Positions 3,234 to 36,306 of a stretch of 49,664 bases of DNA are shown piece by piece. The stretch comes from a virus. The DNA lies in IMG/VR virus record IMGVR_UViG_3300009285_001796, positions 1 to 49,664 of that record, one strand, 5' to 3'. How positions within the stretch are numbered: position 1 is the stretch's first letter; every line of letters begins with the position of its first letter. The notes under the pieces were generated by a model. That model was given only the letters and a program-made list of their open reading frames with translations, did no database searches and was not told the DNA's origin. The position numbers and the translations under genes are program-made.

Positions 3234-3316
3234 TTTCTGCCCTCCTTTTTTTGATGCCGGTTTTTGCCAAGCACCCACCGGCAAGGGGAAAGGGGAAGTT
3301 TGACCATGCCAGCGAA

Positions 3317-4449: not shown

Positions 4450-4933
4450 TGACAGTCCCCTTTTTTGCTACCTTTTGTTTCGATGCGGCCTGCAATCGGA
4501 TAAAGTTGGTAAGTTGTGGATGCGGCTTGAACCATTCACCGTGTAGACGACAGAACGCAAATCTCTTGTGAAATTCCTTCTCCGTCTCTAGCGTTCCGTG
4601 AATTGCTAATAACAGTTTCAACTCAGTAGCATTTGATAGTTGCAGGGCCGATAGACGCCCATGTAAGTTCCGGGAAAAACCTATCTTGATCGGGCCACCC
4701 TCCACCTGAGCCACAAAATAGACGCGTCCCAGAGGTTGCTCCGCAAAATGATATTGGGTGCGGACCTCCTTCAGGCTATCCCATATATACGCTTTCCGAG
4801 CCGCTACGCACTTTTCACACATGGTGGCTAGTTCAGCTTCAAGTTGACTGACGAGCCCTTTCATCAATTCGTGGTTTTCCGTGAACTGGATCGTCAAGTC
4901 TTCGAAATGCTTGACTATGAGATCACCTGACAT
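4442..4933 (-). CDS. T5orf172 / MUG113-type GIY-YIG-like protein
   Basis: 163 residues from ATG at 4933, chosen because GGGGGGAAG sits directly upstream; a longer frame starts without one. Residues 1-60 are helical, probably coiled coil with a CEKC pair. Residues ~71-140 carry VYFVAQVEGGPIKIGFS, R..ALQ, E.E.HKRF and HGEWFK, the strand/KIG, Arg, His and GEWF signatures of T5orf172 domains. This is a GIY-YIG-related nuclease fold found in many phage regulators next to BRO/KilA proteins. Its start overlaps the repressor gene by 19 nt. Nuclease activity is not certain. Confidence 0.8.
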   Translation of the reverse strand: MSGDLIVKHFEDLTIQFTENHELMKGLVSQLEAELATMCEKCVAARKAYIWDSLKEVRTQYHFAEQPLGRVYFVAQVEGGPIKIGFSRNLHGRLSALQLSNATELKLLLAIHGTLETEKEFHKRFAFCRLHGEWFKPHPQLTNFIRLQAASKQKVAKKGTVNA

Positions 4934-5214
4934 TCTGCTTCCCCCCTGTGTATGCGGTGTTTCTGACAGATTACTTCCGCCTTCTTTCGACACATCGCAC
5001 CACTGCCGTCATAAAGCCACATGACATGGATCCCCAGCTTTTCAGCCAGCCGCACAAACGTATCCAAGTCCGGTCGATTGCCTTTGTTCAACCAACCCCG
5101 GACCGTCTCAGTCGGCTCGTCTACGGCCTTGGCAATTGCGACTACGGTTTTGCAGTTCGGCAATCTTGACTTGAGGCGTTCCGGAAAGAATTCCTTACCT
5201 TTAGAGATAGACAT
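4915..5214 (-). CDS. Phage repressor-like XRE/CI-type HTH protein
   Basis: 99 residues. The ATG at 5214 is preceded by GGAGGAATTGCGC; the upstream in-frame extension has no such site. Residues 20-65 (VVAIAKAVDEPTETVRGWLNKG...DTFVRLAEKLGIHVMWLYDG) are a HTH of the CI type, with the usual LAEKLG..V.WL ending. There is no LexA/S24 autoprotease domain, so induction would need an antirepressor, and the BRO protein two genes downstream is a candidate. It is the first gene of the leftward operon and faces the Cro-like gene across a 137-bp control region. Confidence 0.75.
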   Translation of the reverse strand: MSISKGKEFFPERLKSRLPNCKTVVAIAKAVDEPTETVRGWLNKGNRPDLDTFVRLAEKLGIHVMWLYDGSGAMCRKKAEVICQKHRIHRGEAECQVIS

Positions 5215-5303
5215 GCGCAATTCCTCCAAATAATCCTTGACAAACCACAAGCGTCCGTGTTTACGGTATTGCCTGACCAATCGTTAACGGTGTGTCGTGT
5301 GGT

Positions 5304-5319
5304 CTGAAGTATCCTTCAG
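5304..5319. promoter_or_regulatory. Operator candidate: inverted repeat CTGAAG-tatc-CTTCAG
   Basis: A perfect 6-bp inverted repeat with a 4-bp spacer lies over the -10 box of the leftward promoter. Binding here would block that promoter. The same intergenic region has two further short dyads, CGTTAACG (5282-5289) and CCGT-gttt-ACGG near 5255, which could be additional operators. Which protein binds is inferred from position only. Confidence 0.45.
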
Positions 5320-5336
5320 GGTTCAGGACTTGTCAA
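5308..5336 (-). promoter_or_regulatory. Leftward sigma70-type promoter for the repressor/early operon
   Basis: On the minus strand TTGACA (5336-5331) is followed after exactly 17 bp by GATACT (5313-5308). The -35 is perfect and the -10 matches four of six. Predicted transcription would start near 5300, giving a leader of about 85 nt before the repressor ATG at 5214. On the plus strand a second TTGACA (5237-5242) has only a poor -10 (TTTACG), a possible weak rightward promoter. Confidence 0.65.
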
Positions 5337-5351
5337 GGGATTTTTCCGCTC

Positions 5352-5675
5352 ATGCCAAAGAAAATAGAAAACAACTTTTATGATAGGTTTATGGCCCTAA
5401 AACCTAAAGGTCTTTCTGATACTAAGTGGTTTGCTAAATTCGGTTGGACAGGCAACAAGATGCACAAAAAATGCAGTGACTGGCCTCGCATTGAGTTCCC
5501 AGGGCCTAAAACCGTTCAGAAAATTCACGAACATTTTCCGTTGACAGCTGAACAGATGGTCACTCTCATATTAGGAACGGTGGTTAATCCGATCAAGACT
5601 TTGCCTGCCGGTGGGGGGGCGGAGCCGGCGACAGTGGCCGGTGGGTCCACCGGTGATAAAAGAGGGAGTGATTAG
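5352..5675 (+). CDS. Cro-like candidate / small phage regulator
   Basis: 107 residues from ATG at 5352, preceded by AAGGGA at about 12 nt. The stretch LSDTKWFAKFGWTGNKMHKK and PGPKTVQKIHEHFPLTAEQM looks like a short helical HTH protein, and its divergent position opposite the repressor is that of Cro. The C-terminus is low-complexity (Gly/Ala/Thr) and the DNA there has a CCGGTGG-gt-CCACCGG dyad. No family is securely recognised; the Cro role is positional inference. The integrase follows 87 bp downstream on the same strand. Confidence 0.5.
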   Translation: MPKKIENNFYDRFMALKPKGLSDTKWFAKFGWTGNKMHKKCSDWPRIEFPGPKTVQKIHEHFPLTAEQMVTLILGTVVNPIKTLPAGGGAEPATVAGGSTGDKRGSD

Positions 5676-5762
5676 CTTCAATACAGAGCGTTGCTGTCCG
5701 TGGCATTTGTCCATGCTGTTCTTCAGGAGCCGATTCTCGAATCATTAAGACAAGGGAAGTCC

Positions 5763-6911
5763 ATGCCGATAATTCAGCGCTGCCCCGAATGCAGGAATTT
5801 CGCAGCCGCCCGCGTCCAGGTTTGTTCATGTGGGAAACGGCTGCCAACAGGGAAAGGACGCCGGTTCTATCTCAAGAAGGATATCAACCGCGAGAGGCAT
5901 TTCCGTAGCCTTCCCTCCGGAACCACATTGATGGAAGCCGAGAGCCTGTATCACGAATGGATCACTTCTCTCGGGGTACGTTCAACAAAAACCGAAAAGG
6001 CCCCCCTGAGTATCCGCACCGTGGCTGATATCTACTTGAATCGCCTCCAAGTGGAGGGCCGGTCATATTTCCCCAATTCCAAACTGTTTCTGGGGCGATT
6101 ATGCGCCGCATTGGGAGGGGATACTCCGGCTAACGACGTGACGGTTCCCTTGGCGCGCGATATTCAAACGCGGTTGCGAAACGGAGGCGCGAGTCCCGCC
6201 TATGTGGACAGACACCTAGCGATCTACAAGGCCGCTTGGAATTACGTTATCCCTGAGCAACAAAACCCTTGGAACGCTGTGAAATTCTTCCGACCGGATA
6301 ATAATTTGGTGCGCTGGCTCTCAGAAAAAGAAATCGCGGATTTGCTCCTGGCCGCGACCGTCACACATCATAACTCGCCCCCCTATTTCAGGGAGATCAT
6401 TCTCATAGCCATTCACACCGGGATGCGAGAAGAAAATGTTCTCGGCCTTCACACTGATCAGACGGATTTCGATGCGCGACTCATACGCGTTACGCAAAAA
6501 AGAGGTCGCCAGCATACGGTTCCCATGAACACGATTATCTATGAGGCCCTTTGTCGGATTTGCCCACACGATGGAGGTTATTACTTCCCGAATCTGAAGA
6601 CGGGGGAACCCTACACCGCGATTCGTAAAACCTTTGCAACCTGCAAAAAACTGGCTGGCATCGACCGGCCCTTCAGGTTCCATGATCTTCGGCATCACGC
6701 GGCCACGACCCTCCTCAGAAAGACAAAGAATCTTCCGCTTGTCGGGAAGATCCTCGGGCACAGGTCGATTGTGACAACGATGCGTTATGCTCATGTTCTC
6801 GATGATGACATGCGCGAGGCCGTGGAGTCCCTGGTATTGGTAGACAACAACCACGACAACAACCATGCCGAAAGCGCAACCCGTAACATCCTGCCATTTC
6901 GGAGGAATTGA
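5763..6911 (+). CDS. int: Tyrosine integrase with N-terminal zinc ribbon
   Basis: 382 residues from ATG at 5763 behind GGGAAG; a TTG-start extension upstream is less likely. Residues 7-23 hold CPEC...CSC, a small zinc ribbon in place of a classical arm-binding N-domain. A SAM-like core-binding domain spans ~80-165. The catalytic domain has R222 (HTGMREEN), K247, H307 and R310 (HDLRHH), H333 (LGHRS) and nucleophile Y342 (MRYAH), so it is complete. It integrates and excises the phage at the att core 11 bp downstream of its stop codon. The Asn/His-rich tail (residues ~361-369) is encoded by DNA that doubles as an arm-type repeat. Confidence 0.92.
   Translation: MPIIQRCPECRNFAAARVQVCSCGKRLPTGKGRRFYLKKDINRERHFRSLPSGTTLMEAESLYHEWITSLGVRSTKTEKAPLSIRTVADIYLNRLQVEGRSYFPNSKLFLGRLCAALGGDTPANDVTVPLARDIQTRLRNGGASPAYVDRHLAIYKAAWNYVIPEQQNPWNAVKFFRPDNNLVRWLSEKEIADLLLAATVTHHNSPPYFREIILIAIHTGMREENVLGLHTDQTDFDARLIRVTQKRGRQHTVPMNTIIYEALCRICPHDGGYYFPNLKTGEPYTAIRKTFATCKKLAGIDRPFRFHDLRHHAATTLLRKTKNLPLVGKILGHRSIVTTMRYAHVLDDDMREAVESLVLVDNNHDNNHAESATRNILPFRRN
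6842..6864 (+). repeat. Putative P-arm integrase sites
   Basis: Two adjacent copies of a GACAACAACC unit (6843-6852 and 6855-6864) lie inside the 3' end of int. The second, with flanking bases ACGACAACAACC, is identical over 12 bp to a copy on the other side of the att core (7096-7107). Direct repeats flanking a core are the usual arrangement of arm-type integrase sites. Confidence 0.5.
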
Positions 6912-13222: not shown

Positions 13223-15142
13223 ATGATTCAGAGAAAAGAAAACTGCCTCGCCATCAACTTTGCCTGCCCTTCGGATGTGGTAGTGGGTCAGCCGATGCTC
13301 CTTGATTCCAGCGCGAACCTGACCGTCAAGGCGATAGATGCAGACGCATCCATTCTCCTTGTCGGGTCGGTTGACGTGCATCAGGGAAGTGATCTGTTTG
13401 CCACTATCGCGACGAGGTTCCGGGAAAGGCGAGACGACCGGGAGGCAGCGGAAGCGGTGTCACTCGGCGCCTACGTCTATGATGCGTCAGGCAAGGCAGT
13501 TGCATACACAAAGGACGAATTTGTCGGCGTTACTGGCACCGGCACCGGGCCTTTCTTAGTCACGGTCGCGGCCGCGGGGTCTTGCACCGGGACGGAAGCC
13601 GGGCCGGTTTCCATTGCCGACGCGATCAACAACCTACTGAAAGTCAAAGTCGGGAGCGCGGACCCTCAGACCATAGCCCTGACACCGGGAGCGGCCCGCA
13701 CGATAGCCGAGATCCAAAACGACATCAATGACGTGGCAGTCGGGTTTACCGCTGGCGTTGATGGAAGCGGTTATCTGGTCCTGACTTCGGACGCTGTTAC
13801 GGATGCTCTCGAAGTCCAGGCCGTGACCGGAGATTGCTATACCACTGTCGGTCTGACCGCCGCGGTCTATGCGATCACGGTTGCCGCGGGCGGGACAGTT
13901 ACCTGCACAAACCACGGCGCTTTGACGTTTGCCGCTGGCACCAAGGTACTGAAACTGCATGTCGGCTCCGGTGCCAGTCAAACGGTGACTTTCGCTGAGG
14001 AGGAGTTAGCTGCAAGTGCCATAGCCACAGCGATCAACGATGCAACCGACAATATCCTCGCGGAAGTTGTTGATACCGATTACGTCAAAATCTCGGCCTA
14101 TGCGACATACGACAGCCTGACCATAGAGACTAGTGGAAGCACCGCTTTGACCGTCTTGGGACTGACAGGCGGTGTTACTCACGCGATTACAGCCGCGGCC
14201 GGTGGGACGCACACCGGAACTGAGGATGCGGCGCAGTTCATCGCTGACGCGGTGAATAACAAACTAAAGCTCCTCGTCACCGGGGGGAGTTCCGAGACGG
14301 TCACGCTGACAGTCGGGGCGGCTCGCACCATCGACCAGATATTCGCTGAGATCAATAGCGGCACGACTGGACTCACGGCCTCAAAACAGGCTGTCACCGG
14401 ATACCTGGTGCTGGCCGCTGACGCCATTGATAGCGATCTCACCGTCGAGGCCATTGTGAATGATGCCCATGCCGCACTCGGGCTCGTGGCCGATGAATAT
14501 GCCCACACCGAGCAGCACAACCAGGTCAAGGTCACGGTTGGTTCTGGCGACCCTCAGACTTTCACTCTCACGTCCGGATCGAGGACTATCACTCAAATCG
14601 TGACGGATTTTTCGGCAGCGACGGGCTTTTCGGCTTCGGCCTCGACGGGACATCTACGATTGGCAACCGATGACCTTGCAGACGCCTTGATCATTGGGAC
14701 TGTTTCGGGAGATGCCTATGATCTCCTCGGGCTTACGGCCGGAACCTATGACGAGATTTGGAGCCACAATCCGGCATCCATCGCCGGTCTGATTATCAAG
14801 TTACCGGACCCATGTGCAGTCATCGGCACGGTGAGCGGTCTTTTCGATATCGCAAACGGTGTGAACGATGCACTCAGCATCGTGATAGGGGCTGGCGAAA
14901 GTCAGGTCTTCGACCTTACGACCGCGGACGGCCAGACCGCCAATGACATCTGCGACAAGATCAATGACACAGCCACGGATTTCACGGCAGTCCGAGCCCC
15001 AGGTGGATACGTGAAGTTGTTGGTGGATGCTCCGTTCAACGATATCGAGATCGAAGAAGTCGCTAACAGCGCTTATGCAACGCTCGGCTTCACGCCCGCG
15101 GTCACAGCAGCGCCGATGATCATCAACACGCTCGAAAAATAA
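13223..15142 (+). CDS. Capsid decoration protein with five inserted IN-like beta modules
   Basis: 639 residues. Residues 1-~97 (VHQGSDLFATI, TRFRERRDDR, YVYDASGK) and ~514-524 (SHNPASIAGLII), plus the last residues (INTLEK), match the 123-residue neighbour. Between them sit four ~80-residue modules (~136-216, 240-315, 345-426, 432-509). A fifth (~546-625) is inserted near the C-terminus. Each has a VGSG..QT..LT hairpin, a helix ending in IN, a GYL.L strand and a DAY..LGLT close, resembling flagellin hook IN motifs. It probably displays the modules on the head surface. Confidence 0.7.
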   Translation: MIQRKENCLAINFACPSDVVVGQPMLLDSSANLTVKAIDADASILLVGSVDVHQGSDLFATIATRFRERRDDREAAEAVSLGAYVYDASGKAVAYTKDEFVGVTGTGTGPFLVTVAAAGSCTGTEAGPVSIADAINNLLKVKVGSADPQTIALTPGAARTIAEIQNDINDVAVGFTAGVDGSGYLVLTSDAVTDALEVQAVTGDCYTTVGLTAAVYAITVAAGGTVTCTNHGALTFAAGTKVLKLHVGSGASQTVTFAEEELAASAIATAINDATDNILAEVVDTDYVKISAYATYDSLTIETSGSTALTVLGLTGGVTHAITAAAGGTHTGTEDAAQFIADAVNNKLKLLVTGGSSETVTLTVGAARTIDQIFAEINSGTTGLTASKQAVTGYLVLAADAIDSDLTVEAIVNDAHAALGLVADEYAHTEQHNQVKVTVGSGDPQTFTLTSGSRTITQIVTDFSAATGFSASASTGHLRLATDDLADALIIGTVSGDAYDLLGLTAGTYDEIWSHNPASIAGLIIKLPDPCAVIGTVSGLFDIANGVNDALSIVIGAGESQVFDLTTADGQTANDICDKINDTATDFTAVRAPGGYVKLLVDAPFNDIEIEEVANSAYATLGFTPAVTAAPMIINTLEK

Positions 15143-19081: not shown

Positions 19082-21349
19082 ATGACACTAGGAGCCGCAA
19101 GAGCAATCTTCACGATCAACGACCTTTCTCAGTTCGTGGACGAGCTGGTGAAGGGTTATGTTTTCATGGTCATTCAGGCCGAACGCGGACCCATAGGCGA
19201 GCCGCGGGTCATCTCCACCTTGGAGGAATACCGCAGGATCTACGGTGGCAAGGTTCCCTGGACCACAGACCCGCTTGTCTGCGAAATGGCACTACGCCAA
19301 GGCGGTCGCCTCATTCTGTGCAGGGCCGCTCACTACGACGACATTCACGATATCTCCACCATCACGGCACTGAAGTCGAATGTCTCCCTCGATGACAGAG
19401 GGGCCATTCCCTTGGCCGCTATGGTGACAGGTGCGGTCGGGCCGTTCACGCTCAGTCCTGCCAAGGCTGGAGCTGTGACGGGCGGCGAGGTCGGGCCGTT
19501 CCTTATCGTAACAGGCGCTAATGATGCTTTCAAGATCAAGGTGGGCACCCACGACGCGGAGACTGTAACTTTGACGCAGGGTTCGGCGCGAACTGCCCAG
19601 CAGATCGTTGACGACATAAATGCCGGGACGACCAATCTTACAGCCTCTATTTCGGACAACAAGGTCAAGATTACGGCCAATACCGTGACAGACGATCTGG
19701 AAATTCAGACCGTGGCGAATGACAGTTATTCCTCGCTGGGCTTTGTCGAGGGGACATTCGCGGCAGATGCAGGCACGGATGCTCTGGCTATCTCGGTGAA
19801 CGGAGGAGCCGACCAACCCTTCACATTGACCCCACTCTTGGGCGAAACCGGGAATTTCACCCTGACCGCTTCCCAAGTTGCCACACAGCTTGCCGCCCTG
19901 ACCGGAGCGAGGGCGAGCGTAGTTAACGGCGCAGTCCGTTTGACGACCACGGCAACCGGGGAGACAGCAACCATCCAGGTGAAAAGCACCGGGACGGCTC
20001 AGACTACGCTCGGTTTTGTAACTACGGAGCAGACAGGGGCCACAGGTTCATCTTTGCCTACCTTGAAATTCGAGGCTAAAGACCCCGGATTATGGGGCGA
20101 TTCTCTGAAGATTCAGATTTCGGATTCAAACCTCTTTCCGGGCATAGCTTTCAACGTGAAAGTCATCTACGAAAGGGACGGCACGCTCACTGAGGACTAT
20201 GCCGACCTGGTGATGGACTCTACGAGCCTGCGATATGCGCCGACTTACATCAGCGAGCGTTCCAGGCTCGTGGTGGTGACAGACCTCGATTCGGCCAATA
20301 CTGATCCTGCCAATATGCCCCTTGTGAATCTTTATGGCACTCCGCTGACCGGCGGAGATGACGGCGGGGACATGGAAGAAGCAGATTGGATCGGGGATGC
20401 AACGGCGCAGACGGGCATGTATTCGGCTGATCGCAATTTTTACATGTCTATGGATTTGATGATTCCAGGGACCACTTCGGTCACGGTTTACCAAGCCATG
20501 ATTGCCTACTGTGAGTCCCGCGGCGACATGATCAGTTATGGTCAGGTGCCTTTCGGCATGGAACCGGAGGAAGTGGTTGATTGGCGGCTTGGAAACGCGC
20601 CGTGGAGTCATCCGGCCTTTAACAGTCACCGATTTTCGATCTTCTTCGGTTTCCCAAAGGTCTATGACGACATGGACGATTCCAGGAAGTTCGTTTCATG
20701 TCTCGGGCACCTGGCCTCTTGTCTGGCAAAGACGGACAACAACTATGGGTATCACTACTCGCCGGTCGGTCCTCGACGGGGCAAAGTCACTCTCATGGAG
20801 GACATCGACTTTAACATTCAGGCATACAGGAGCACAGGGTACGCGGACCTGTTTGCGGAGAATGGCATCAATTACCTGTTCATTAGCCACATGCCTGGCA
20901 TCGAGGGCGGGATGTTTTGGGAGCAGCGCACTAGTTGGCGACCGGCTTCCGCGCTCCGGGAGTTGAATGTCGTCCGGTTCATAACTGCGATGAACAGGAT
21001 GCTGATGCCGGTGCTCAGAACCTTCATTTTTGAACCCAACCATCCGGTCACATGGCGTGAAATCTGGCGGGTCCTGAAGCCTGCTTTTGACGATTGGAAA
21101 AGCCGCTATGCGATCTATGACTACGCTCTTCAGTGTGACGAGGATGCCTATTTCGACGGCGGGGTTCTCAAGAACGCCAAACTCAACAGCGGCCTGGATA
21201 TTGACAGGGGCATCTACCATTGTCGGGCGCTCATCCAGCCGACCAGGACAATCTACTATCTCGAATTTGAGCTCGGCCTGATCAGAACAGGCGAGGCATT
21301 CGAGAATTACCTCGAGCTTAAAGAACTTCCCGGATGGATCGTGACATAA
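19082..21349 (+). CDS. Contractile tail sheath protein with two inserted IN-like modules
   Basis: 755 residues, longer than a simple P2-type sheath (about 400). The N-terminus is sheath-like (MVIQAERGPIGEPRVIST..EEYRRIYGG). The C-terminal ~420 residues carry the usual sheath core, including LRELNVVRFITAMNRMLM, FIFEPNHPVTWREIWRV and GLDIDRGIYHCRALIQPT. Residues ~146-222 and ~232-312 are two modules of the type found in the decoration protein (VGTHDAETVTLTQGSARTAQQIVDDIN, then NDSYSSLGF). They lie in the variable outer domain of the sheath, so would be exposed on the tail surface. Confidence 0.85.
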   Translation: MTLGAARAIFTINDLSQFVDELVKGYVFMVIQAERGPIGEPRVISTLEEYRRIYGGKVPWTTDPLVCEMALRQGGRLILCRAAHYDDIHDISTITALKSNVSLDDRGAIPLAAMVTGAVGPFTLSPAKAGAVTGGEVGPFLIVTGANDAFKIKVGTHDAETVTLTQGSARTAQQIVDDINAGTTNLTASISDNKVKITANTVTDDLEIQTVANDSYSSLGFVEGTFAADAGTDALAISVNGGADQPFTLTPLLGETGNFTLTASQVATQLAALTGARASVVNGAVRLTTTATGETATIQVKSTGTAQTTLGFVTTEQTGATGSSLPTLKFEAKDPGLWGDSLKIQISDSNLFPGIAFNVKVIYERDGTLTEDYADLVMDSTSLRYAPTYISERSRLVVVTDLDSANTDPANMPLVNLYGTPLTGGDDGGDMEEADWIGDATAQTGMYSADRNFYMSMDLMIPGTTSVTVYQAMIAYCESRGDMISYGQVPFGMEPEEVVDWRLGNAPWSHPAFNSHRFSIFFGFPKVYDDMDDSRKFVSCLGHLASCLAKTDNNYGYHYSPVGPRRGKVTLMEDIDFNIQAYRSTGYADLFAENGINYLFISHMPGIEGGMFWEQRTSWRPASALRELNVVRFITAMNRMLMPVLRTFIFEPNHPVTWREIWRVLKPAFDDWKSRYAIYDYALQCDEDAYFDGGVLKNAKLNSGLDIDRGIYHCRALIQPTRTIYYLEFELGLIRTGEAFENYLELKELPGWIVT

Positions 21350-21362
21350 GGAGGCTTAAACG

Positions 21363-21836
21363 ATGACCATTGAAGCCAGTAGTATAAATCGACTCAAGGA
21401 ATTCAAATTCCGGGTCGAGATCAACGGGGTTCCTTCGGCGTTGGTCCAGGAATTTGACCCTGGCAAAAGGAGTCACGGCGTTACTGAACATGCGGGAGCG
21501 GGCCAGAACCACGCCTCCAAAGAAGCCGGGATGATCAAATACGGGAACGCACGAATCAAAAACGTAGTCCCCATTGATGGTCCGGGGCAGGATATGTGGG
21601 TAAAGTTCCTGAATTCTGCACAAAACCCCTTGACTGGCAATGGCGGAAACAAGGCCGATTACACCTTCGTCCTGAGTTTCTTTGAGTTGCTTCCCGCTGG
21701 CAATCCTGTCCGCACTTGGCATTACTACAATGCTTGGGTAGTGGACTATAGCCCTGGGAATCGATCGGGCCTGAGTGAAAACAAGGACGTGATCGAGGAA
21801 GTCGAGATAGCTTTCGACCGACGCGATCCCGCATAG
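21363..21836 (+). CDS. Tail tube protein (T4 gp19-like)
   Basis: 157 residues behind TAAGGAGGCTTAAACG. The pattern KFRVEINGVPSALVQEFDPG, then HASKEAGMIKYGNARIKNVV, WVKFLNSAQ and RTWHYYNAWVVDYSPGNRS ending in EVEIAFDRRDP is that of gp19-like tube proteins. These form the inner tube of contractile tails. Immediately downstream of the sheath, as usual. Confidence 0.85.
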   Translation: MTIEASSINRLKEFKFRVEINGVPSALVQEFDPGKRSHGVTEHAGAGQNHASKEAGMIKYGNARIKNVVPIDGPGQDMWVKFLNSAQNPLTGNGGNKADYTFVLSFFELLPAGNPVRTWHYYNAWVVDYSPGNRSGLSENKDVIEEVEIAFDRRDPA

Positions 21837-21843
21837 GTGATTT

Positions 21844-22560
21844 ATGACCCAATCTCTGCAATCTACTGTAATTTTGCCGATCTCTCATAAGGAGGTCGTT
21901 ATTCAGGAGGGCGACGGATATCTGGACCGCATACTCCTCAAGAAGAACAAGCGAGTCTTTGAGGTTATGCCGGAATACCTCGCCGCGCATGTGGTTTCCA
22001 TCGACGGTCGGGGCGAGATCAAGGAGAAGGACATCCTGGACCTCCTAGTACCTGACCAGGAATGGCTGGCGGTCGAGCTTTACAAACTGAAATACGATCA
22101 AATCATGGAACTCACCTTCGGCTGTCCCCACTGTGGCCATGTCGATACTGACAAGGGCCTGGATCTGGGGAAGCTCGAAGTGATCCCGGTCCCTGAAGGA
22201 GCTGTCGGTCCGGACCCGACCTTTGAGGTAGTGCTTCCTCGATCCGGCAAGAAGGCCCGCATAGGCTTTCTGGACGGCCATAAGGAGCGTTTCCTGATGG
22301 AGTTGGAAGCCAGCACGGGCGGGGACATTGATTTGAATCAGGCGGATTTCAAGGCATTGCGTGAACTCGACGGCGTTTCCGTGTTCAGTTACGAGGATGT
22401 TGCGATGCTTCCACCGAAGGATCATGCCGTGATCCGCCGCGCCAGAAAGAAGCTGATATGCGGATACGACACCAATGTCATCGTTGAGTGCGATTCCTGC
22501 GGGCGAAAGACCGTAATCAACATCCTGACCCATCGCGATTTTTTACTGCCCGGGGGATAA
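21844..22560 (+). CDS. Tail assembly chaperone G-like, zinc-ribbon (frame-0 product)
   Basis: 238 residues. CPHC (94-97) and CDSC (216-219) form a split zinc ribbon, as in T4-type baseplate hub chaperone proteins. The region between them is acidic (LMELEASTGGDIDLNQADF). Between tube and tape measure this is the position of the G/GT tail chaperones. The last codons contain a slippery T TTT TTA (22539-22545), so a fraction of ribosomes should enter the -1 frame and make a longer fusion. The frame-0 product ends LLPGG. Confidence 0.75.
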   Translation: MTQSLQSTVILPISHKEVVIQEGDGYLDRILLKKNKRVFEVMPEYLAAHVVSIDGRGEIKEKDILDLLVPDQEWLAVELYKLKYDQIMELTFGCPHCGHVDTDKGLDLGKLEVIPVPEGAVGPDPTFEVVLPRSGKKARIGFLDGHKERFLMELEASTGGDIDLNQADFKALRELDGVSVFSYEDVAMLPPKDHAVIRRARKKLICGYDTNVIVECDSCGRKTVINILTHRDFLLPGG

Positions 22561-22581
22561 CCAGAGAGTTGGGCGTCCCCC
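22539..22581 (+). promoter_or_regulatory. Programmed -1 ribosomal frameshift signal
   Basis: The heptamer T TTT TTA (22539-22545) is in register with frame 0: codons TTT at 22540 and TTA at 22543. Six nucleotides later GGGGGA (22552-22557) can pair with TCCCCC (22576-22581) around an 18-nt loop that has its own small AAC/GTT stem. This is the textbook X XXY YYZ, spacer and stem-loop plan. The -1 frame is open from here to 22796. Confidence 0.8.
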
Positions 22582-22796
22582 TGATTCAATGGGGATTCAA
22601 GGATCCTTCGGCGTTGTATCCGTTGAACAGATACACCGTCGAAGCCTTTGAACAGGAAATCTTCAACATCCAATACCATATGAAGATGCCGCGTAGCGAG
22701 GTTCTTTCTTGGCCTCTCACGGAACGACGGCGCAATTGGGCAATGCTGGTTGAGCAACGGAAGTTTGAGAAGAATCAAACAGAGCGACCGGAGTAG
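22542..22796 (+). CDS. Tail assembly chaperone GT extension (-1 frame)
   Basis: About 84 codons read after a -1 slip at 22539-22545, giving a fusion of about 317 residues with the upstream gene. The segment TRELGVPLIQWGFKDPSAL..PLNRYTVEAFEQEIFNIQYHM and a charged helical end (LTERRRNWAMLVEQRKFEKNQ) is a coherent protein. It has no credible start codon of its own: the only in-frame candidate, GTG at 22488, has no ribosome site. In lambda, GT recruits tape measure to tube subunits; the tape measure gene follows at 22799. Confidence 0.75.
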   Translation, partial: FTARGITRELGVPLIQWGFKDPSALYPLNRYTVEAFEQEIFNIQYHMKMPRSEVLSWPLTERRRNWAMLVEQRKFEKNQTERPE

Positions 22797-22798
22797 TA

Positions 22799-25252
22799 AT
22801 GGACCAGAATATAGGGATTGCATACCAGGTCAGCGGCCATAAGGACCTGGTCGATGCAAGCCAGCAAGTCGCAAAAGAACTGCTCCAAGTGGATATCGCC
22901 ATCAAGAGAGTATCCACTTCTATGGCTCAGTCGGCCTCGGTCTTGACGAACTGGACCGCTGCGCTTTCCGGAACCTCACGCGCTACCCGCATGCTCAGGC
23001 TCCTCGTGCAATCGGGGGATAAGCTCAACTCCTTTGCCAATACCAGTTATTCTCTCGCCACTGCGGCAAGACGCACAGAACATTTTGCTCAACAACTTGA
23101 AAGTGTCACCGGTCGAGCGGTCAAGGCCGCTGCGGGGATTGATGTCCTTACAGCCTCAGTCACTCGGTATAGCGCCGCGGTGGGAAGCACAGGGAATTTG
23201 ACTATTCGGGCTCCGAGGGCGGGAGCAGCGGGCAGCGGGGCCATCCTTTCGCCAGGAGCAGGCGCCACCAAGAAGGGTTCCGGCCCCGCGTCAGTCAATG
23301 ACATTCTCGGAGCAGCGCCCTGGTTCCTCCTGCGCTATCGGGCATGGACCGCGGCAATGGAGGGCGGAAGCTACATGCTCCGTGATGTCATGATGGGCCG
23401 TTCCCGCAAGGAAATAGCGGCGGCTCTTGGTGAACTCTCTGCTGTGTCGTTTGACCCCATAAACAAGGCAAAGACGGAAGCTGCGGCCCGGACCTTCTCA
23501 ACGAAATTCTGGACTGTGACCGCGGAGCAATACACGCAGGCCATGAGTCAGACGGCATCGGCCTTTGACGTGAATGAAGTCGGGTTTGAGAATCTTCGCA
23601 AGATGAATGAGGCAGTCCTTCAATTTTCCATGCTCTCGAAAATGAAGGGCGAGGGCGCTGCCCAAATGATGTCGCAGTGGACCAAGACGCTCCTTACGTA
23701 CCAAACCAAGGACGTGCGGGAGGCTATCCAAAGCGGCGGACGGGCCGATGTTCCCGGTTATGGCAACGTGGATCTTGGCGACTTCTCGACCAAGATCGTT
23801 GCACAGATGACCACGGCTATCGAGAAATCGAACATTTGGGGCCCAGGCATATCGGCCGCGGCAAGACATTCCTTGCCGGTATTGCTCAACCAAGGGTGGG
23901 ACGTTCCTTCGGCCCTGTCTTTCTATGGCGCTCTGGTCGATATGGGCTTTCAGCCCGGTCAGGCCGGTCGAGGCACCAAGGATGTTTTTACCCGGTTCCC
24001 GACCGATGCGTCGCGCGCCCTGCTTATGGGTATGGGCAAATGGCAAGACCCGATTGCGGTGAAGGCCGCTGGCGGCGATGCGTCACAGGCCCGGCTCCAA
24101 AATGAGATGAATCTGAAAGCCCTCTCGCCTATGGTCGGTCAAATCATGTCGAACCCAGAGCTTATGGCTCAGTTCCTGCCGATGCTCGGTCGGCAGGTCA
24201 AGACGGCACAGGACAAGGGGATGAGGCTCACTGAAGACATGAAGTTCTCGAAATATTTCCTCCCGATCATACAGTCGATCATGAAGGAAGGCTTCCAGGA
24301 GAGTTTCTTGAAGCTGCGACAGGACATTACTACCAAGGGCATTCCTGAAGATATGGCGAACAAGGCACTCGCAACGCTCGATGATGCTGGGACGGCATGG
24401 GAGCGGATATCAACAGGAATGTCGAATTTCTTTCAAACCATAGCAGACACGAAATGGGCGCATCGCATCGCATCGGGACTCAGTGCGCCCTTTAATATCA
24501 ATACCGCTGCCATGCAGATGGATAAATTGATCCGCATGGAGAAATTAAGCCCTGACGAGGCAGCGAAGCGCATTGACGACAACAAAGGATTCTTTGAATC
24601 AATTTATGGTGTCCAGAATACCTTTGCGCTCCGCGAACGGGCCAAAATATCCGCCAGCGGCGATTTTGGATGGACAAAATGGCTTCAGTGGATTGAGGCA
24701 ACCTCTATGGAAGGAATTAGCCCGTCTATCGGCGGTCTGGCGAACTGGCTCGGTCCGAAAGTGGAGGGCTGGACTTCTGGCAATGGTCCATCGGAGCTTA
24801 TGAATTCAGCCAGCGGCCAACTTCAAGGAGCACTGACAACTCTCGGTGAAATCTTCTCCTGGCTTAATGAGAAGGCCGGGAGCCTCAACCAGACCCTTGG
24901 CTCCATGATGCCCTGGAATTGGTTCGGAGAGGGTGGCGACGCTCGAATTGGCCGTTTGGCTGGCGATGCAATAGCCGCGGGCGTGGACTTTGGCGGTCCT
25001 TCCGTCAGTTTCAACGGCCCGGAGCCCCTGACTCAACCCATCATGCCGGGGCAGACTGCGCCAATGGATCCGGCGCTCATGGCTGGAGCAATGACAGAGC
25101 CCCCACCGATCGTACTTCAGAATCAACTCCATATCGACGGACGCATGATCTACGAGTGGATCAGCGAGGCTATCGAATGGAATCGCACCACCGGATATCA
25201 AGGTTTTGGCGGTGATCCGATGGGTTTTAATTCAGGAGTGGCGGGACCATGA
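22799..25252 (+). CDS. Tail tape measure protein
   Basis: 817 residues, longest gene between chaperones and hub. Its N-terminal ~110 residues are helical (LVDASQQVAKELLQVDIAIKR..), the centre has hydrophobic helices (SALSFYGALVDMGFQ, WERISTGMSNFFQTIADT), and the C-terminus is Gly/Pro-rich. By the usual proportionality, a protein of this length implies a tail of roughly 120 nm (inference). No muramidase domain is visible. It is ATGA-coupled to the next gene. Confidence 0.8.
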   Translation: MDQNIGIAYQVSGHKDLVDASQQVAKELLQVDIAIKRVSTSMAQSASVLTNWTAALSGTSRATRMLRLLVQSGDKLNSFANTSYSLATAARRTEHFAQQLESVTGRAVKAAAGIDVLTASVTRYSAAVGSTGNLTIRAPRAGAAGSGAILSPGAGATKKGSGPASVNDILGAAPWFLLRYRAWTAAMEGGSYMLRDVMMGRSRKEIAAALGELSAVSFDPINKAKTEAAARTFSTKFWTVTAEQYTQAMSQTASAFDVNEVGFENLRKMNEAVLQFSMLSKMKGEGAAQMMSQWTKTLLTYQTKDVREAIQSGGRADVPGYGNVDLGDFSTKIVAQMTTAIEKSNIWGPGISAAARHSLPVLLNQGWDVPSALSFYGALVDMGFQPGQAGRGTKDVFTRFPTDASRALLMGMGKWQDPIAVKAAGGDASQARLQNEMNLKALSPMVGQIMSNPELMAQFLPMLGRQVKTAQDKGMRLTEDMKFSKYFLPIIQSIMKEGFQESFLKLRQDITTKGIPEDMANKALATLDDAGTAWERISTGMSNFFQTIADTKWAHRIASGLSAPFNINTAAMQMDKLIRMEKLSPDEAAKRIDDNKGFFESIYGVQNTFALRERAKISASGDFGWTKWLQWIEATSMEGISPSIGGLANWLGPKVEGWTSGNGPSELMNSASGQLQGALTTLGEIFSWLNEKAGSLNQTLGSMMPWNWFGEGGDARIGRLAGDAIAAGVDFGGPSVSFNGPEPLTQPIMPGQTAPMDPALMAGAMTEPPPIVLQNQLHIDGRMIYEWISEAIEWNRTTGYQGFGGDPMGFNSGVAGP

Positions 25253-30192: not shown

Positions 30193-31416
30193 ATGCCGAG
30201 AAAAGCACTCGTAGAGAGAGTTCCGAAGATTTGGCAACGCCTCGATACCGATGGCGTGCTCGATGGTTTTCTCGGCGTGGTCGATTCGGAGTTCCTTTAC
30301 ATCCATGACAAGGCCGGCGAAGTATTCGACCTCCGGAACGTGGACACGGTGCCGGACAGATATCTTTCTCTCCTGGCCCCCCTGGTCGGCCACACTTGGC
30401 GCGGTACAAAAGATCGACCCTGGAATCGCCGACGCATCAGGAACGCAATCAGGAGGCATTCCTATAAGGGCACAGCGGTCAGGCTTGCGGATACGGTTGC
30501 GGATAATGGCACGAGCCCTCATGAGGTCACGGATCAGGCATCAAAGCTCCTGGTGTGGGGAGTGCAGGGCCGATGGGGCTGCGATGACGCGGCGCTTCAG
30601 GCCGCGGACTACTGGCATGATGGGGCATTTGTGCTTGAGGTCCGGGATGCGCTTGAAGACATTGCCGGCTTGAAAGAGGATCTGAGGGAGACCACGGCGG
30701 GCGGTGAGTGCTGGTATCTGAGGCTCGTCTCCGACATTGAACTGTTTGCCGAAATGGCCGATTTGCTGACTATGGACAATGCCGGGATTACGTGGGACCG
30801 CGACGATATCACGGTCGGCTATCCGCCTTTCCCGCCGGGAACGCTCGCTCGAATGGCCGGCTGGCTGACTATGGACAATGCCGGGATTACGTGGGACCGC
30901 GACGATATCACGGTCGGCTATCCGTTCATCAGTGCGGGGCCGTATTGGATCGGGCTTGGCAAAAGCTCGGCATGGGAGGATGAGGAGAACCCACCGGAAC
31001 CGGCGCCAGCGGATGAAACGCTGACCGAGCCGTTTCTTTATTTGCGTGCGGACAGGGCCTCGCTGTGTGAACCGGTTGATGAGATCCCGCCCGAGGAGGA
31101 TGGGATCATCATCGGGGACCAGGCTTACCAGTTTGTCAGTGACGAGGCGGGCATCGCGGACCCGGCCCGTTATCTGTATCTGGAAGTGAAATACGACACA
31201 TGGATAGGCCAGCCCGTGGGCGGTTTCCGGCAGATCGCGGCATTGTGGGGACTCCAGGCCATAGCGGGCTATACCCATTGGGATTGGTTGAGTCCCGCGA
31301 GAGTGGCAGATCCCGGATATGTCATGGGACTGGCAAACATGGCGGTGAAAGAGACGATTCTCGGGGAGCAACGAATACTACGGATTCTGGGCAAGATCGG
31401 ACAAGACACGATATAG
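30193..31416 (+). CDS. Tail protein I-like baseplate component with internal duplication
   Basis: 407 residues. VERVPKIWQRLDTDGVLDGFLGVVDSEF, LLAPLVGHTWRG and RNAIRRHSYKGTAVRL are typical of P2 I-like tail proteins that follow J. The centre carries two copies of a 33-residue unit (MADLLTMDN.. and MAGWLTMDN.., about residues 188-242) that are nearly identical in DNA. The C-terminus (YLEVKYDTWIGQPVGGFRQIAAL...) is unassigned. Confidence 0.72.
   Translation: MPRKALVERVPKIWQRLDTDGVLDGFLGVVDSEFLYIHDKAGEVFDLRNVDTVPDRYLSLLAPLVGHTWRGTKDRPWNRRRIRNAIRRHSYKGTAVRLADTVADNGTSPHEVTDQASKLLVWGVQGRWGCDDAALQAADYWHDGAFVLEVRDALEDIAGLKEDLRETTAGGECWYLRLVSDIELFAEMADLLTMDNAGITWDRDDITVGYPPFPPGTLARMAGWLTMDNAGITWDRDDITVGYPFISAGPYWIGLGKSSAWEDEENPPEPAPADETLTEPFLYLRADRASLCEPVDEIPPEEDGIIIGDQAYQFVSDEAGIADPARYLYLEVKYDTWIGQPVGGFRQIAALWGLQAIAGYTHWDWLSPARVADPGYVMGLANMAVKETILGEQRILRILGKIGQDTI
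30753..30924 (+). repeat. 99-bp-period direct repeat inside the I-like gene
   Basis: Two copies spaced by 99 bp. AATGGCCG begins each (30753, 30852), 4 bp differ, and then 61 bp are identical (30765-30825 and 30864-30924). The duplication is in frame and adds 33 residues. The DNA identity suggests a recent event. Confidence 0.9.
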
Positions 31417-31425
31417 GAGCGACGT

Positions 31426-34400
31426 ATGGGCAATTTGGTTGTTGAAGCACTACATAATTACAATGTCCGGGCTTTTGATAACCTGAATCCTCCGATTCTC
31501 CAAACACCGGAGATTGTGGGTGCTCCTGGAAGCGCCTCTTATTCCTACGTCGCGACTTTCACGACCATCGGCGGCGAGACCACGGCATCTGACGAAGTGG
31601 CAACAACCACGGCCGCTGAAGTGCTGAACGGCACCAATAAGGTCAAAGTCCAGCCGCAGACCATACCGACCGGCGCGAAGAAAATCCGGTTCTTCAAGAA
31701 GATCGGCCTCGTTTGGAATTTCATAGGTGAAGTGACTGTCGCGGTCGGGTACATCTACGACACTGGCCAAGCCGCAGACTCTCAGATTCATCCTCCCAGC
31801 GAGAACACGTCCGGCCGGCCGTACTGGTATGCTCTCCTCGTGCAACCGGGGCGCTACGCTCAACGCATGGAGATGTCCGACATGACGGCCATGATCCATC
31901 GTGCAATTCAGGACATCGCGGACACGATTCACAAGGACGGCGACGTTATCGAGGGCGGCAGCCCGGTGCATGTTTCGGGGACCACATGGTCATTCACAGC
32001 CGCAAAAATCTATGCAGACGGTTGCTATTTGAGAGTGCCCGCAGGCCAAGTGACTCTCGCCGGAACCGGGACGGAACGAGTGGGCGTGACGATTACGCCA
32101 GGGATCCTCACCTATGAGGATGACCCGATCATTCGGAACATTGATGAAGGGGTTTTTAATAGTCCCGCGTATAACGCACCAGGCGCGGACAGACTCACGT
32201 TTGACGTGGTGTGGGTAGTCGATGACCCGAACATGATCCCCATCCAAGATTTCGTTGATGGACAGCCCAAGACGAAGCAGTTCCTACCGGAACGCTCCAT
32301 GCAAGACATTGCCGCTGCGCGGAGACTCTATGACCTGGCTGGGTCCTATGTGACACGGAACTTCCCAATGGAAGTCGTGGCACACACAACAGATGCGACA
32401 AAATTGCTCCTGAAAGTCAACCCTGGAAAAGCCTACCCTATGGGGTTTGAAGTTGAGACCCTGGCCACGCAGTCGATACCGTTCAACAAAGCCCGCGATG
32501 TGATGTTCGTGAATAACTCGGGCGTGGATGGATTCAGCATTCCGGGCGGGTACGTGATTACCTCGAACCCGGAGAATTATGACGTTGACGGCCTGAAGGT
32601 CAGCCTCACAGTTGGTTCCGGGAATGCCCATGTGGTGACGCTCTCTGGTAGTGGCCAGACGGCCGCGCAGGTGGGCGCACAGATCGAGGCGTCGGTCAAT
32701 GCCTATCCCACAAATGGAACACTTGTGGAATGCACCGCGGCCGGCGGCATACTGAAAATCCAGGCAGTTGATGGCAAGAATCTGACCGTGAATAGCGTCT
32801 CCGATGACGCTTATACCATCCTCGGGATCTCAACAGGGGGCCATACTCCGGTCGGGACGCGGATCTATCCCATCAACGATGCCTACGTGAAGGACGTGTC
32901 AGACCTGAGTTACCGCACAGAGACGGTTGTGACGCTGACGCACAACGGCTCGACGCATATCGATGACCTTGGAGTCGAGAATGCGCTCGATATCCTTGGG
33001 GCCTCGACGCTGGCCGCGGACTGCCATGACGAGAAGTGGGATTTCCTGGACGGTGTGGATTTTGTGAGGGTGGGGAATACGATCTCTTTTGCGGGCATGG
33101 GCGGTGACGAGCCGAACGCGGGAGCGACCTATCGGGTGAAATGCGCTTATAACCGCAATGCCACAAAGGGTGCTCGCATTCTGGTAAGGGTCACAGACGC
33201 ACAGGTTGTCAAGGGCACGGTTGGCGGCACGGATAATCTCGTCTTTACCGGCGCCACGGTGACGAAAGTGCTGGACGGCAGCCCGGTTACGGGACTTTCC
33301 GGCTCGATCAGCGATGCAGTGAGCATTCTTCGTGTCAATGACACGCCCGGGCAAGGCGCGACCGAGTATTCGAGGTACGCTTTCCTGAAAAACTCCACTG
33401 CCCTCGCGCATGCCACTTCTCAAATAGACTGGTCCGGCGCAGGTGCGCCCAATACCGGAATAACCGGGCAACCACAAAATGCCGCGACTTACTATATCAC
33501 CTTGGAAGCGTGGTATCACGCGACAGAAGGAGATTATGTCGGCCCTGACTCCTTCGATATGTACGAGAGCATCGAGACCTTCGGGACCGACAACCTCCGC
33601 GACTGCACAGATTTCCGCACTACGGGTGTTTGGCCGGTTCCTGATGAGTCCCCGACGTTCGACTATAACTATTATTTGAGCCGGGTGGACAAGCTCGTCT
33701 TGACCGACACCGGCGATTTCCGCCTTGTGACCGGCTCGCCCGCCAGGGTGCCACCGGTTCCGTCAGAGCAAACAGGACTCCTATCACTGGCCATTGTCCG
33801 GATTGCGCCATACACCTACGGTCCTGGTGAAGCGCGGGTGACATCGCTGGAACCTTTGCGAATCACTCAGCAGGGGCTCCGTAATTTCGGGGACAGGATA
33901 GCCAGGCTCGAATACTGGAATGTGGTCAATACCCTCGAAAAGGAGGTTGAAGGGCATCAGGCAGCGGCTACGGCCAAGGGTTTATTCACTGACGCACTGA
34001 CCGGGTTCAACAGGATCGACACTGCCTTCGACAAGAACGGCGTGAAGCATACCGCCGCGGTGGATCGAATGTCAGGGACACTCCTCTTGCCGGCTACACG
34101 ACAGCCCAAATTACTCTCCGTGGACCTGGTGAACTCAACTCACGTCCGCAGGAATGGGAACATTTTGTGCCTGGACTATCAACCGGAAGTCTTTGACCAG
34201 CAATTGCAGGCGAGCATATGGGTGAGTTGCGCTCCAGATTTTGTTTATGAAAACTTCGTAGGTGATATGAACATCACTCCGTTTTCGTTAGCTTTTCTCG
34301 ACGAGACACAATTACCAGCTATAAATGTGGATTATGACAACAACCTCACTGGAGCCGCTACCGATGGGTCTGACCTAAACTCCACTATTTGGGGTGCGTG

Positions 34401-36306
34401 GGGGCTTAATGGAATAGTGAATGGTGGCATTGACCCGTTTATGAGTCTAGGAGGGGATCCTCATAATCAACAGTGGGCAGTTGGATGGCGGGAGAGAACC
34501 GGAATACAGCTTACGCAGATTCCTGGCACCATCAATCTCGATCTGGGTAGCCGTGTAGTTGATATGTCTATGGTGCCGATGCTAAGAACCACTGATCCAG
34601 GCGGTAACCCCATAGAGATTACGGTTCGCATCACGGGTTTAGTTCCGAATCAGGACCATGCAATTAGTATAAATGGCAAAGTCGTTGACTTCACCTACGA
34701 TTCAGGTGCCCAAGATCCAAAAGGGTCCGTGGGAACTCACACATACCAGGGGGCCACGACCATTGAGACTGACAATTCAGGCCGCATAACCGGCACGTTT
34801 CTAATGCCGCAGGGCATTCCGACAGGGACCGTTCCTGTCAAGGTGTTTCATTGGAGTCAACCGGCTTACTCCTGGGCGCAGACCAATTTCTTTGGTGCGG
34901 GTTTTGCTGTCCAAAAACAAAACACTGTAATAGGACTACCTAATCCCACCTATCGACTGGAATCGGTATCTCAAGTGGAGATTACGGACTTTGCATGGGG
35001 AGATCCTATAGCACAAACTTTTATGATAGGCAGCGAGATTACATACATTTCTGCTGTAGGAGTTTTTTTCCATAGGAAATCCAGTGTCCAGCCTATCACC
35101 ATGCAGATCCGTAATACCATTAATGGGCAACCCGGTCAGGTCGTGTATTCTTCCTGCACGCTTGAACCTAACGAGGTAGGGGTGTCTGAGGATTCCTCGG
35201 TAGAGACAGTGTTTACGTTCGATTCTGTGATGGGGTTCGCTCCCAATACGGAGTTTTGTTTTGTGACCGTTCCTGGTGCTTCGACTACCGACTATGAGGT
35301 GTGGGTCGCGGAGCTTGGCGATATTGACGTGCAGAGCGGGAACGTCATCGGGCCGCCGCTTGCTGACGGGGTGTTTTTTCACTCGCCCAATGGTCGGACT
35401 TGGGAGCCGTGGACTAAGCGGGATGTGAAATACAAGCTCTATAAGAGCAATTTTGAAAACGATTGCCAAATCGTATTCGACAGCATCACCGGCATCGACG
35501 CGTCAAGGATCGCGTTAGCAATCCAGGAGTTTATTGCACCAGGCACGCATGTCGTTTGGAGCTATACTCTCGATACCGTTGATCCCACGTGGATTCCGTT
35601 CGATCCGTTCACTGATGTGGTACTCGAGCAGATCATCAACGAGGTGCAACTCCGTGTGGATGTGACGAGCCTTGGCGGGTCATACCAGATAGTTGAACAG
35701 ATCGCGGGAGTACTCTTCCTGCTCCATGTGGAATCGGCGGACTACATCTCGACCAATCAGACATTTGAGGATCCTCTCAACTATCCGAACAAAATAGTTG
35801 CAACGATGCTCCTGGACGCGGACGGGACGAATGGCGCCGGGGTAACGAGTGCCGCGCCCATGTATTCCGATGATAACGGAGACCATTGGGTCCAGATCAT
35901 GTCTTCACCAGGTTTCGTCCCTGTCGGACAGCACGAGAACTACTATACACAGCAATTCGAGACGCCTGACGAGGCCACGGTCACGGATGCGAGCAACACG
36001 ACGCCCATAGTGTTGGAATCCGTAGCCCATCCATACCAGGAGGACCAGATCATCGTTGTTGCCAGCGTTACAGGTAACACCGCGGCGAACGGCACATGGC
36101 GAGCGGTGAGTGTGACTGATGACCTGATTACCCTGGTCGATCCTGACACCGGCGCGAATTCTGCGGGCAATGGGGCTTATGCTGGGGGTGGGACGATCAA
36201 TCTGGCTCCGTTGACTCAGGTGCGTTACCGCATCCAACTTACCACGACCAATCAGGCACGGACCCCGAAAGTGCAGAAAATCGGCGTCATTTGCAGCGAG
36301 GTTTGA
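31426..36306 (+). CDS. Large tail/baseplate structural protein (DUF4815-like), with one IN-like module
   Basis: 1626 residues, the largest gene here. The N-terminal ~120 residues look like an Ig-like beta domain. ITPGILTYEDDPIIRN and PGADRLTFDVVWVV match DUF4815-type phage structural proteins. Residues ~388-470 contain a single IN-like module (LTVGSGNAHVVTLSG..., closing DDAYTILGI). A later section has DPIAQTFMIGSEITYISAVGVFF and EVWVAELGD, seen in large myovirus structural proteins. DNA from about 34230 to 35200 is visibly more AT-rich than its flanks. Probably wedge/tail-tip scaffold for the fibres. Confidence 0.6.
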   Translation: MGNLVVEALHNYNVRAFDNLNPPILQTPEIVGAPGSASYSYVATFTTIGGETTASDEVATTTAAEVLNGTNKVKVQPQTIPTGAKKIRFFKKIGLVWNFIGEVTVAVGYIYDTGQAADSQIHPPSENTSGRPYWYALLVQPGRYAQRMEMSDMTAMIHRAIQDIADTIHKDGDVIEGGSPVHVSGTTWSFTAAKIYADGCYLRVPAGQVTLAGTGTERVGVTITPGILTYEDDPIIRNIDEGVFNSPAYNAPGADRLTFDVVWVVDDPNMIPIQDFVDGQPKTKQFLPERSMQDIAAARRLYDLAGSYVTRNFPMEVVAHTTDATKLLLKVNPGKAYPMGFEVETLATQSIPFNKARDVMFVNNSGVDGFSIPGGYVITSNPENYDVDGLKVSLTVGSGNAHVVTLSGSGQTAAQVGAQIEASVNAYPTNGTLVECTAAGGILKIQAVDGKNLTVNSVSDDAYTILGISTGGHTPVGTRIYPINDAYVKDVSDLSYRTETVVTLTHNGSTHIDDLGVENALDILGASTLAADCHDEKWDFLDGVDFVRVGNTISFAGMGGDEPNAGATYRVKCAYNRNATKGARILVRVTDAQVVKGTVGGTDNLVFTGATVTKVLDGSPVTGLSGSISDAVSILRVNDTPGQGATEYSRYAFLKNSTALAHATSQIDWSGAGAPNTGITGQPQNAATYYITLEAWYHATEGDYVGPDSFDMYESIETFGTDNLRDCTDFRTTGVWPVPDESPTFDYNYYLSRVDKLVLTDTGDFRLVTGSPARVPPVPSEQTGLLSLAIVRIAPYTYGPGEARVTSLEPLRITQQGLRNFGDRIARLEYWNVVNTLEKEVEGHQAAATAKGLFTDALTGFNRIDTAFDKNGVKHTAAVDRMSGTLLLPATRQPKLLSVDLVNSTHVRRNGNILCLDYQPEVFDQQLQASIWVSCAPDFVYENFVGDMNITPFSLAFLDETQLPAINVDYDNNLTGAATDGSDLNSTIWGAWGLNGIVNGGIDPFMSLGGDPHNQQWAVGWRERTGIQLTQIPGTINLDLGSRVVDMSMVPMLRTTDPGGNPIEITVRITGLVPNQDHAISINGKVVDFTYDSGAQDPKGSVGTHTYQGATTIETDNSGRITGTFLMPQGIPTGTVPVKVFHWSQPAYSWAQTNFFGAGFAVQKQNTVIGLPNPTYRLESVSQVEITDFAWGDPIAQTFMIGSEITYISAVGVFFHRKSSVQPITMQIRNTINGQPGQVVYSSCTLEPNEVGVSEDSSVETVFTFDSVMGFAPNTEFCFVTVPGASTTDYEVWVAELGDIDVQSGNVIGPPLADGVFFHSPNGRTWEPWTKRDVKYKLYKSNFENDCQIVFDSITGIDASRIALAIQEFIAPGTHVVWSYTLDTVDPTWIPFDPFTDVVLEQIINEVQLRVDVTSLGGSYQIVEQIAGVLFLLHVESADYISTNQTFEDPLNYPNKIVATMLLDADGTNGAGVTSAAPMYSDDNGDHWVQIMSSPGFVPVGQHENYYTQQFETPDEATVTDASNTTPIVLESVAHPYQEDQIIVVASVTGNTAANGTWRAVSVTDDLITLVDPDTGANSAGNGAYAGGGTINLAPLTQVRYRIQLTTTNQARTPKVQKIGVICSEV

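Follow-up and report, generated by a model that had tools for sequence, protein, structure and literature searches.

Two tail assembly chaperones predicted from one gene of an uncultivated contractile-tailed phage by −1 frameshifting at T_TTT_TTA

Gene context of the chaperone locus

IMGVR_UViG_3300009285_001796 is a viral record in IMG/VR. The whole stretch of 49,664 nt (positions 1–49,664) was analysed and is termed the window; the features of the chaperone region described below are on the + strand. The gene order in the region of interest is sheath, tube, chaperone, tape measure. The tail sheath protein is encoded at positions 19082–21349 (phrog_23, E-value = 6e-39), and a gp19-like tail tube protein (PF06841, E-value = 3e-11) at positions 21363–21836, directly 5′ of the chaperone gene. 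The chaperone open reading frame, termed here frame 0, has a length of 238 aa and spans positions 21844–22560. An open reading frame of 817 aa at positions 22799–25252 displays no informative family match of its own and is assigned as the tape measure protein by synteny, i.e. by its position; a tape measure is annotated at the equivalent place in Listeria phage LIS04 and Flavobacterium phage immuto. The location of the chaperone between tail tube and tape measure is common to the window, Bacillus phage SP-15, LIS04 and immuto.

Repeats are present in virion genes of the window. A module of ~75 residues with an end motif similar to DAYxxLGL is found in an open reading frame upstream of the capsid gene (13223–15142), where it matches Flagellin_IN, internally in the tail sheath (19082–21349), and in a large DUF4815 tail protein (31426–36306). 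A Tail_P2_I-like protein (30193–31416) has an internal exact duplication of LTMDNAGITWDRDDITVGYP, as well as a BW3TFN domain.

Identity of the frame-0 protein

The window protein alone scores 15.3 bits against PF12322 (T4_baseplate), which is under the cut-off of 24.5 bits; thus its assignment rests on relatives and on profile and fold comparison. Its two closest relatives are encoded by viral contigs (L001, 53% and L007, 51% protein identity) and both pass the cut-off, with 35.3 and 33.4 bits, respectively. A profile made from these three sequences matches a thornevirus gp26 profile across residues 62–236 (E-value = 3.5e-20). The best fold matches in BFVD are a T4-like baseplate hub assembly protein (1.4e-16) and the SP-15 hub subunit (1.6e-14); Aeromonas phage 25 gp26 is also matched (3.5e-5). 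By these comparisons the frame-0 protein is a member of the T4 gp26 family (PF12322/phrog_150), and it represents the short form (TAC-N) of a gp26-type chaperone. No lambda G sequence-family match was found for the window protein in Pfam or PHROGs.

The structural model (pLDDT 82) consists of two halves that resemble each other, and a CxxC knuckle closes each of them. The first knuckle is at residues 94–97 (positions 22123–22134) and the second at residues 216–219 (positions 22489–22500), both located by family-wide alignment, and a weak zinc-finger structural match covers both of them (Z = 3.0). The sequence likeness between the two halves is equalled by 1.2% of shuffles. Of the solved structures, the highest ranking is 2ob9, the HK97 tail assembly chaperone, which aligns with 77 residues of repeat 1 at 2.6 Å with Z = 7.0, where a Z under 8 is not proof of a shared chaperone fold; it is followed by 5ir0 (5.1) and others at 3.3 or less. 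A sequence search of solved structures with the gp26 profile gave no match. The protein appears to consist of an HK97-chaperone-like fold duplicated in tandem, each repeat having one CxxC.

A sequence-only reading of the window had noted a split zinc ribbon in this protein and had suggested that it may be a distinct chaperone family using the HIV-like slippery sequence. The two separated CxxC knuckles are present. Since each half of the model ends in a knuckle, the “split ribbon” probably represents two predicted knuckles, one contributed by each copy of a chaperone domain that was duplicated. The distinct family is not borne out, as the profiles, the relatives that exceed the Pfam cut-off and the fold search all lead to T4 gp26; gp26 and gp51 have already been named as T4-like tail chaperones with a poly-T −1 signal, and thus the family is not new.

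The slippery site and the −1 extension

The frame-0 codons starting at position 22537 read GAT TTT TTA CTG CCC GGG GGA TAA. This places the heptamer T_TTT_TTA (22539–22545) in exact frame-0 register near the 3′ end of the open reading frame, whose TAA stop is at positions 22558–22560. The −1 frame is open for 85 codons from position 22539 to a TAG at 22794–22796, and the ATG of the tape measure gene follows 2 nt further on at 22799; the Shine-Dalgarno-like GGAG of that gene falls within the −1 open reading frame. The extension proper (positions 22545–22796) consists of 83 codons and the TAG. The fusion computed from the sequence has 234 + 83 = 317 residues with the junction HRDFL-TARGITR. In these points (register, end of the −1 frame 2 bp ahead of the tape measure, and a fusion of ~317 residues) the analysis reproduces the sequence-only reading, as it does for the 6-nt spacer between heptamer and stem (CTGCCC, 22546–22551).

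Heptamers of this type are rare in the window. In 7,078 codons from 16 genes there are just two in-frame T_TTT_TTN sequences, the chaperone heptamer and a TTTTTTC at position 35064, and TTA makes up 3.1% of Leu codons in the structural genes. A −1 frame of equal length arises in 1.3% of base-shuffled trials.

The spacer is followed by a predicted hairpin at positions 22552–22581, which overlaps the frame-0 stop. It has a 7-bp stem (GGGGGAT, 22552–22558, paired with GTCCCCC, 22575–22581) that encloses an inner 4-bp stem. The 40 nt 3′ of the heptamer fold at −19.0 kcal/mol; of 2,269 coding 40-mers in the window, this places them among the lowest 0.2%. Measured against dinucleotide shuffles, the region does not stand out (z about −1). 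In L001 and L007 the hairpin is kept neither in sequence nor in place, and a conserved stem was dropped from consideration. Of heptamer and stem, which the sequence-only reading had suggested looking for in homologous phages, these two relatives keep the heptamer. The hairpin is a plausible, not a demonstrated, frameshift stimulator.

The extension encodes the C-terminal domain of the putative long form (TAC-NC). Its core has three predicted helices (pLDDT about 86–88 over residues 41–80). Comparison with a profile of gp51-like extensions is at shuffle level (HMM E-value = 50) and hhalign gives a probability of 15%; with no match to that profile, homology of this domain to gp51 is not shown. 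A match to DUF6760 is weak and under the family cut-off (E-value = 0.05). The weak fold matches include tail chaperones as well as a gp51 protein, and none is below E = 0.1; the model gave no useful match with solved structures. No second locus resembling the frame-0 protein is present in the record, which may be incomplete, and within it coding for the putative long form was seen solely as the −1 extension and not as a gene of its own.

Conservation in close relatives

Both L001 and L007 retain T_TTT_TTA in register. The window extension is homologous to the −1 open reading frames of L001 (blastp E-value = 6e-12) and L007 (7e-5). When all frames are compared, the similarity is carried by the −1/−1 pair (z = 17.5, compared with 4.1 or less for other frame pairs). 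The −1 open reading frame of L001 contains no ATG, GTG or TTG, and a TAG lies one codon 5′ of the heptamer. Thus standard initiation cannot reach this sequence, and only a shift can. No other single observation speaks as strongly for frameshifting in the window's own family as this start-less open reading frame.

Among bacterial and archaeal genomes the three-member profile detected no relative, and a further scan of viral sequences with L007 recovered only L007 itself; thus the close family has three members here.

The −1 class in the gp26 family

In viral contigs, 104 of 104 gp26 loci surveyed (100 of them distinct) have an in-frame T_TTT_TTC or T_TTT_TTT followed by a −1 extension; these loci are related to each other and 104 is not a number of independent events. 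TTTTTTC is the dominant heptamer, and TTTTTTA is a local variant of it. A T always precedes the Phe-Phe pair in the −1 class, although the amino acid it belongs to varies (S, N, D, T, A, H or R). At other Phe-Phe pairs within the same loci, T precedes TTT in 21 of 231. Among isolated phages, xxT_TTT_TTC or TTT, continued by a −1 extension, forms the end of the gp26-type gene in jumbo phages, cyanophage S-CAM9, Melnitz and others. In S-CAM9 a gene within the extension is annotated as baseplate hub assembly catalyst, gp51.

Two loci were set aside: L005, which has a tape-measure match, and L014, which shows tandem gp26-like genes and no clear extension. In L014 the two genes lie head to tail at positions 4700–6200, a possible further route to two chaperone forms. 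In the public records of SP-15, LIS04, RaK2 and Melnitz (L004, 6530–6770; L009, 6640–6895; L024, 2190–2410; L028, 2193–2396) the gp51-like extension is either unannotated or annotated from a late ATG, with conserved sequence dropped.

The −1 open reading frame could instead be a separate small gene with its own start coupled to the frame-0 stop, the T-run being conserved merely as Phe-Leu codons. Potential starts do occur. The window has TTG at codons 11, 26 and 29 of the −1 open reading frame (the first of them 8 nt past the frame-0 stop) and a GTG at position 22488, upstream of the heptamer. In some relatives an ATG overlaps the frame-0 stop, and in 54 of the 100 distinct −1 loci the first ATG is the sixth codon of the −1 open reading frame. 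Phe-Phe/Leu is also conserved at the protein level. Against this, L001 lacks any standard start codon that could be used, the conserved −1 sequence beside the site contains no start in many relatives, and the preceding wobble T and the choice of TTT far exceed what is seen in Phe-Phe codon usage. A separate gene is judged very improbable, and the absence of a credible start, as originally claimed, is a fair description of the window and absolute in L001.

The +1 class and the direction of the shift

SP-15, LIS04, Streptococcus phage GXN1, immuto and Microcystis phage Mel-JY01 have the same Phe-Phe site with an extension that lies in the +1 (or −2) frame, and so do about 90 of 96 additional loci from viral contigs. 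The sites in this class are of two types, GAR-TTY-TTT-CGT and TTT-TTT-TGG/TAY. Among 83 scored +1 loci, a single one has T before the Phe-Phe pair. Sites of the TTT-CGT type are similar to UCC_UUU_CGU, a +1 site that is named in the title of PMC3498833. The TTT-TTT-TGG/TAY type keeps its seventh T whether the codon specifies Trp or Tyr; for sites of this type, +1 slippage in the P site is thereby favoured over −2.

Six loci of the +1 survey were first scored as −1, by the longer frame; five of these have a +1-type site and an open +1 frame. The sixth, L242, is the only one that truly appears to be −1. It has A_AAT_TTC near the gp26 stop (positions ~3247–3260); its extension lies in the −1 frame and its +1 frame is closed, and it may represent a recent switch of direction within the +1 group. 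Outside the viral contigs, L250 (positions ~1940–2200), from a bacterial contig (Erysipelotrichaceae MAG), shows GAA TTT TTT CGT with a +1 extension; this contig probably carries phage DNA.

Transcriptional slippage, in which mRNAs with an extra U would encode the long form, is considered still less probable than a separate gene. The window has a run of six Ts and many +1 relatives have seven. Six Ts, however, is short for polymerase slippage, the register of the tandem codons is invariant throughout the −1 class, and several +1 members break the run as TTC TTT CGT, which is unfavourable to polymerase slippage. Least probable of all are the decay of a once-fused gene, with the extension as its remnant, and an assembly error as the cause of the shift; the L001 extension does lack a start of its own, but two independent contigs of about 50% identity share the heptamer and a homologous open −1 frame, and the arrangement recurs across the gp26 family.

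When the −1/+1 label is placed on a tree of 96 gp26 proteins, two changes are needed, compared with 31 for shuffled labels; the tree has long deep branches and the window and its two relatives are on one of the longest, so that their exact placement is unsure. A tentative, rather doubtful, proposal is that the Phe-Phe hinge acts as a lineage-locked switch in the gp26 family. Here xxT_TTT_TTC (TTA in the window) would give a −1 shift, TTT-CGN or TTT-TTT-T with no preceding T would give a +1 shift, and T4 would use gene duplication instead.

Comparison with known systems

T4 gp26/gp51 resembles the window system in having a gp26-family protein with two CxxC knuckles, and a short form plus a C-terminally extended long form. 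In T4, however, the long form gp51 is encoded by a separate, divergently transcribed gene, and gene 26 has no heptamer (it ends in AAA GAG TTC TTT GAG TTA CTA TAA), whereas the window has a −1 extension. T4 gp51 displays a weak match to the −1 extension profile (E-value = 0.002). The PRFect paper (PMC10885494) and PMC12846349 both cite Vladimirov, Gautam and Davidson (2022), the former for T4-like phages in which a short gene exists beside a separate gene for the fused long form, the latter for poly-T −1 signals in T4-like TAC-N genes. The window differs from the T4-like chaperones in having T_TTT_TTA in place of T_TTT_TTC, and in a C-terminal domain that matches no gp51-like profile.

A conserved GTTTTT −1 site has been described in tail chaperones of Vandenendeviridae and Andersonviridae (phage Adele, PMC12846349). 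There, as predicted for the window, TAC-N and TAC-NC arise by slipping back one base on a T-run that precedes the tape measure, and the downstream open reading frame usually carries an annotation as a separate gene; the phage group is a different one. The gp26-type chaperones of SP-15, LIS04, GXN1, immuto and Mel-JY01 share with the window a gp26-family frame-0 protein and an overlapping extension before the tape measure, at the same Phe-Phe site; they differ in the frame of the extension. Slippage by −1 at a T-run is already known across the T4 gp26 chaperone family, and the window is a further example.

The genetic logic is also shared with lambda G/GT and HK97 gp13 (Xu, Hendrix and Duda, 2004; PMC5009743), and the HK97 chaperone 2ob9 is the best structural match of the N-terminal repeat, at a Z short of proof. 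Compared with lambda G, the window protein appears tandemly duplicated and carries zinc-knuckle elements, and the putative shift site is a T-run, whereas that of lambda is GGGAAAG.

Proposed mechanism

The frame anatomy, the conservation of the heptamer and of the −1 extension, and the family of the frame-0 protein are observed. We infer the slippage itself, its rate, the role of the hairpin and the functions of the two forms, as follows. Most ribosomes would stop at the frame-0 TAA and produce the 238-residue short form. In a minority, the tRNAs on TTT TTA would slip one base back to TTT TTT, probably aided by the GC-rich hairpin 6 nt downstream, and translation would continue to give a 317-residue long form with the helical C-terminal domain.

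In the lambda G/GT model the short form is plentiful and attaches to the tape measure, which the scarce long form connects to the tube protein (PMC5009743). The gene order, the two-form anatomy and the putative chaperone fold of the window fit this model. By analogy, the short form would coat the tape measure encoded by the neighbouring gene, the long form would recruit the tube protein, and neither would be part of the finished virion.

The original proposal that the tail-chaperone pair immediately 5′ of the tape measure involves a −1 programmed frameshift is supported, with conservation in homologues. On the sequence evidence it is very probable that the window gene encodes two tail assembly chaperones by −1 programmed frameshifting on T_TTT_TTA. 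The phage, which is uncultivated and has a contractile tail, almost certainly produces both chaperone versions in this way.

Significance

The C-terminal half of these chaperones often goes unannotated, or is entered as a gene of its own whose late start codon leaves out conserved sequence. Once the shift is recognised, gene models can be corrected in jumbo phages, cyanophages and thorneviruses. Within the gp26 family there are also many related genes that apparently do one job by −1 shifting, by +1 shifting or by gene duplication, and thus the evolution of frameshift direction becomes a testable question. If the proposed Phe-Phe switch is correct, the family would represent a natural experiment in which the direction of frameshifting flips while the product is unchanged.
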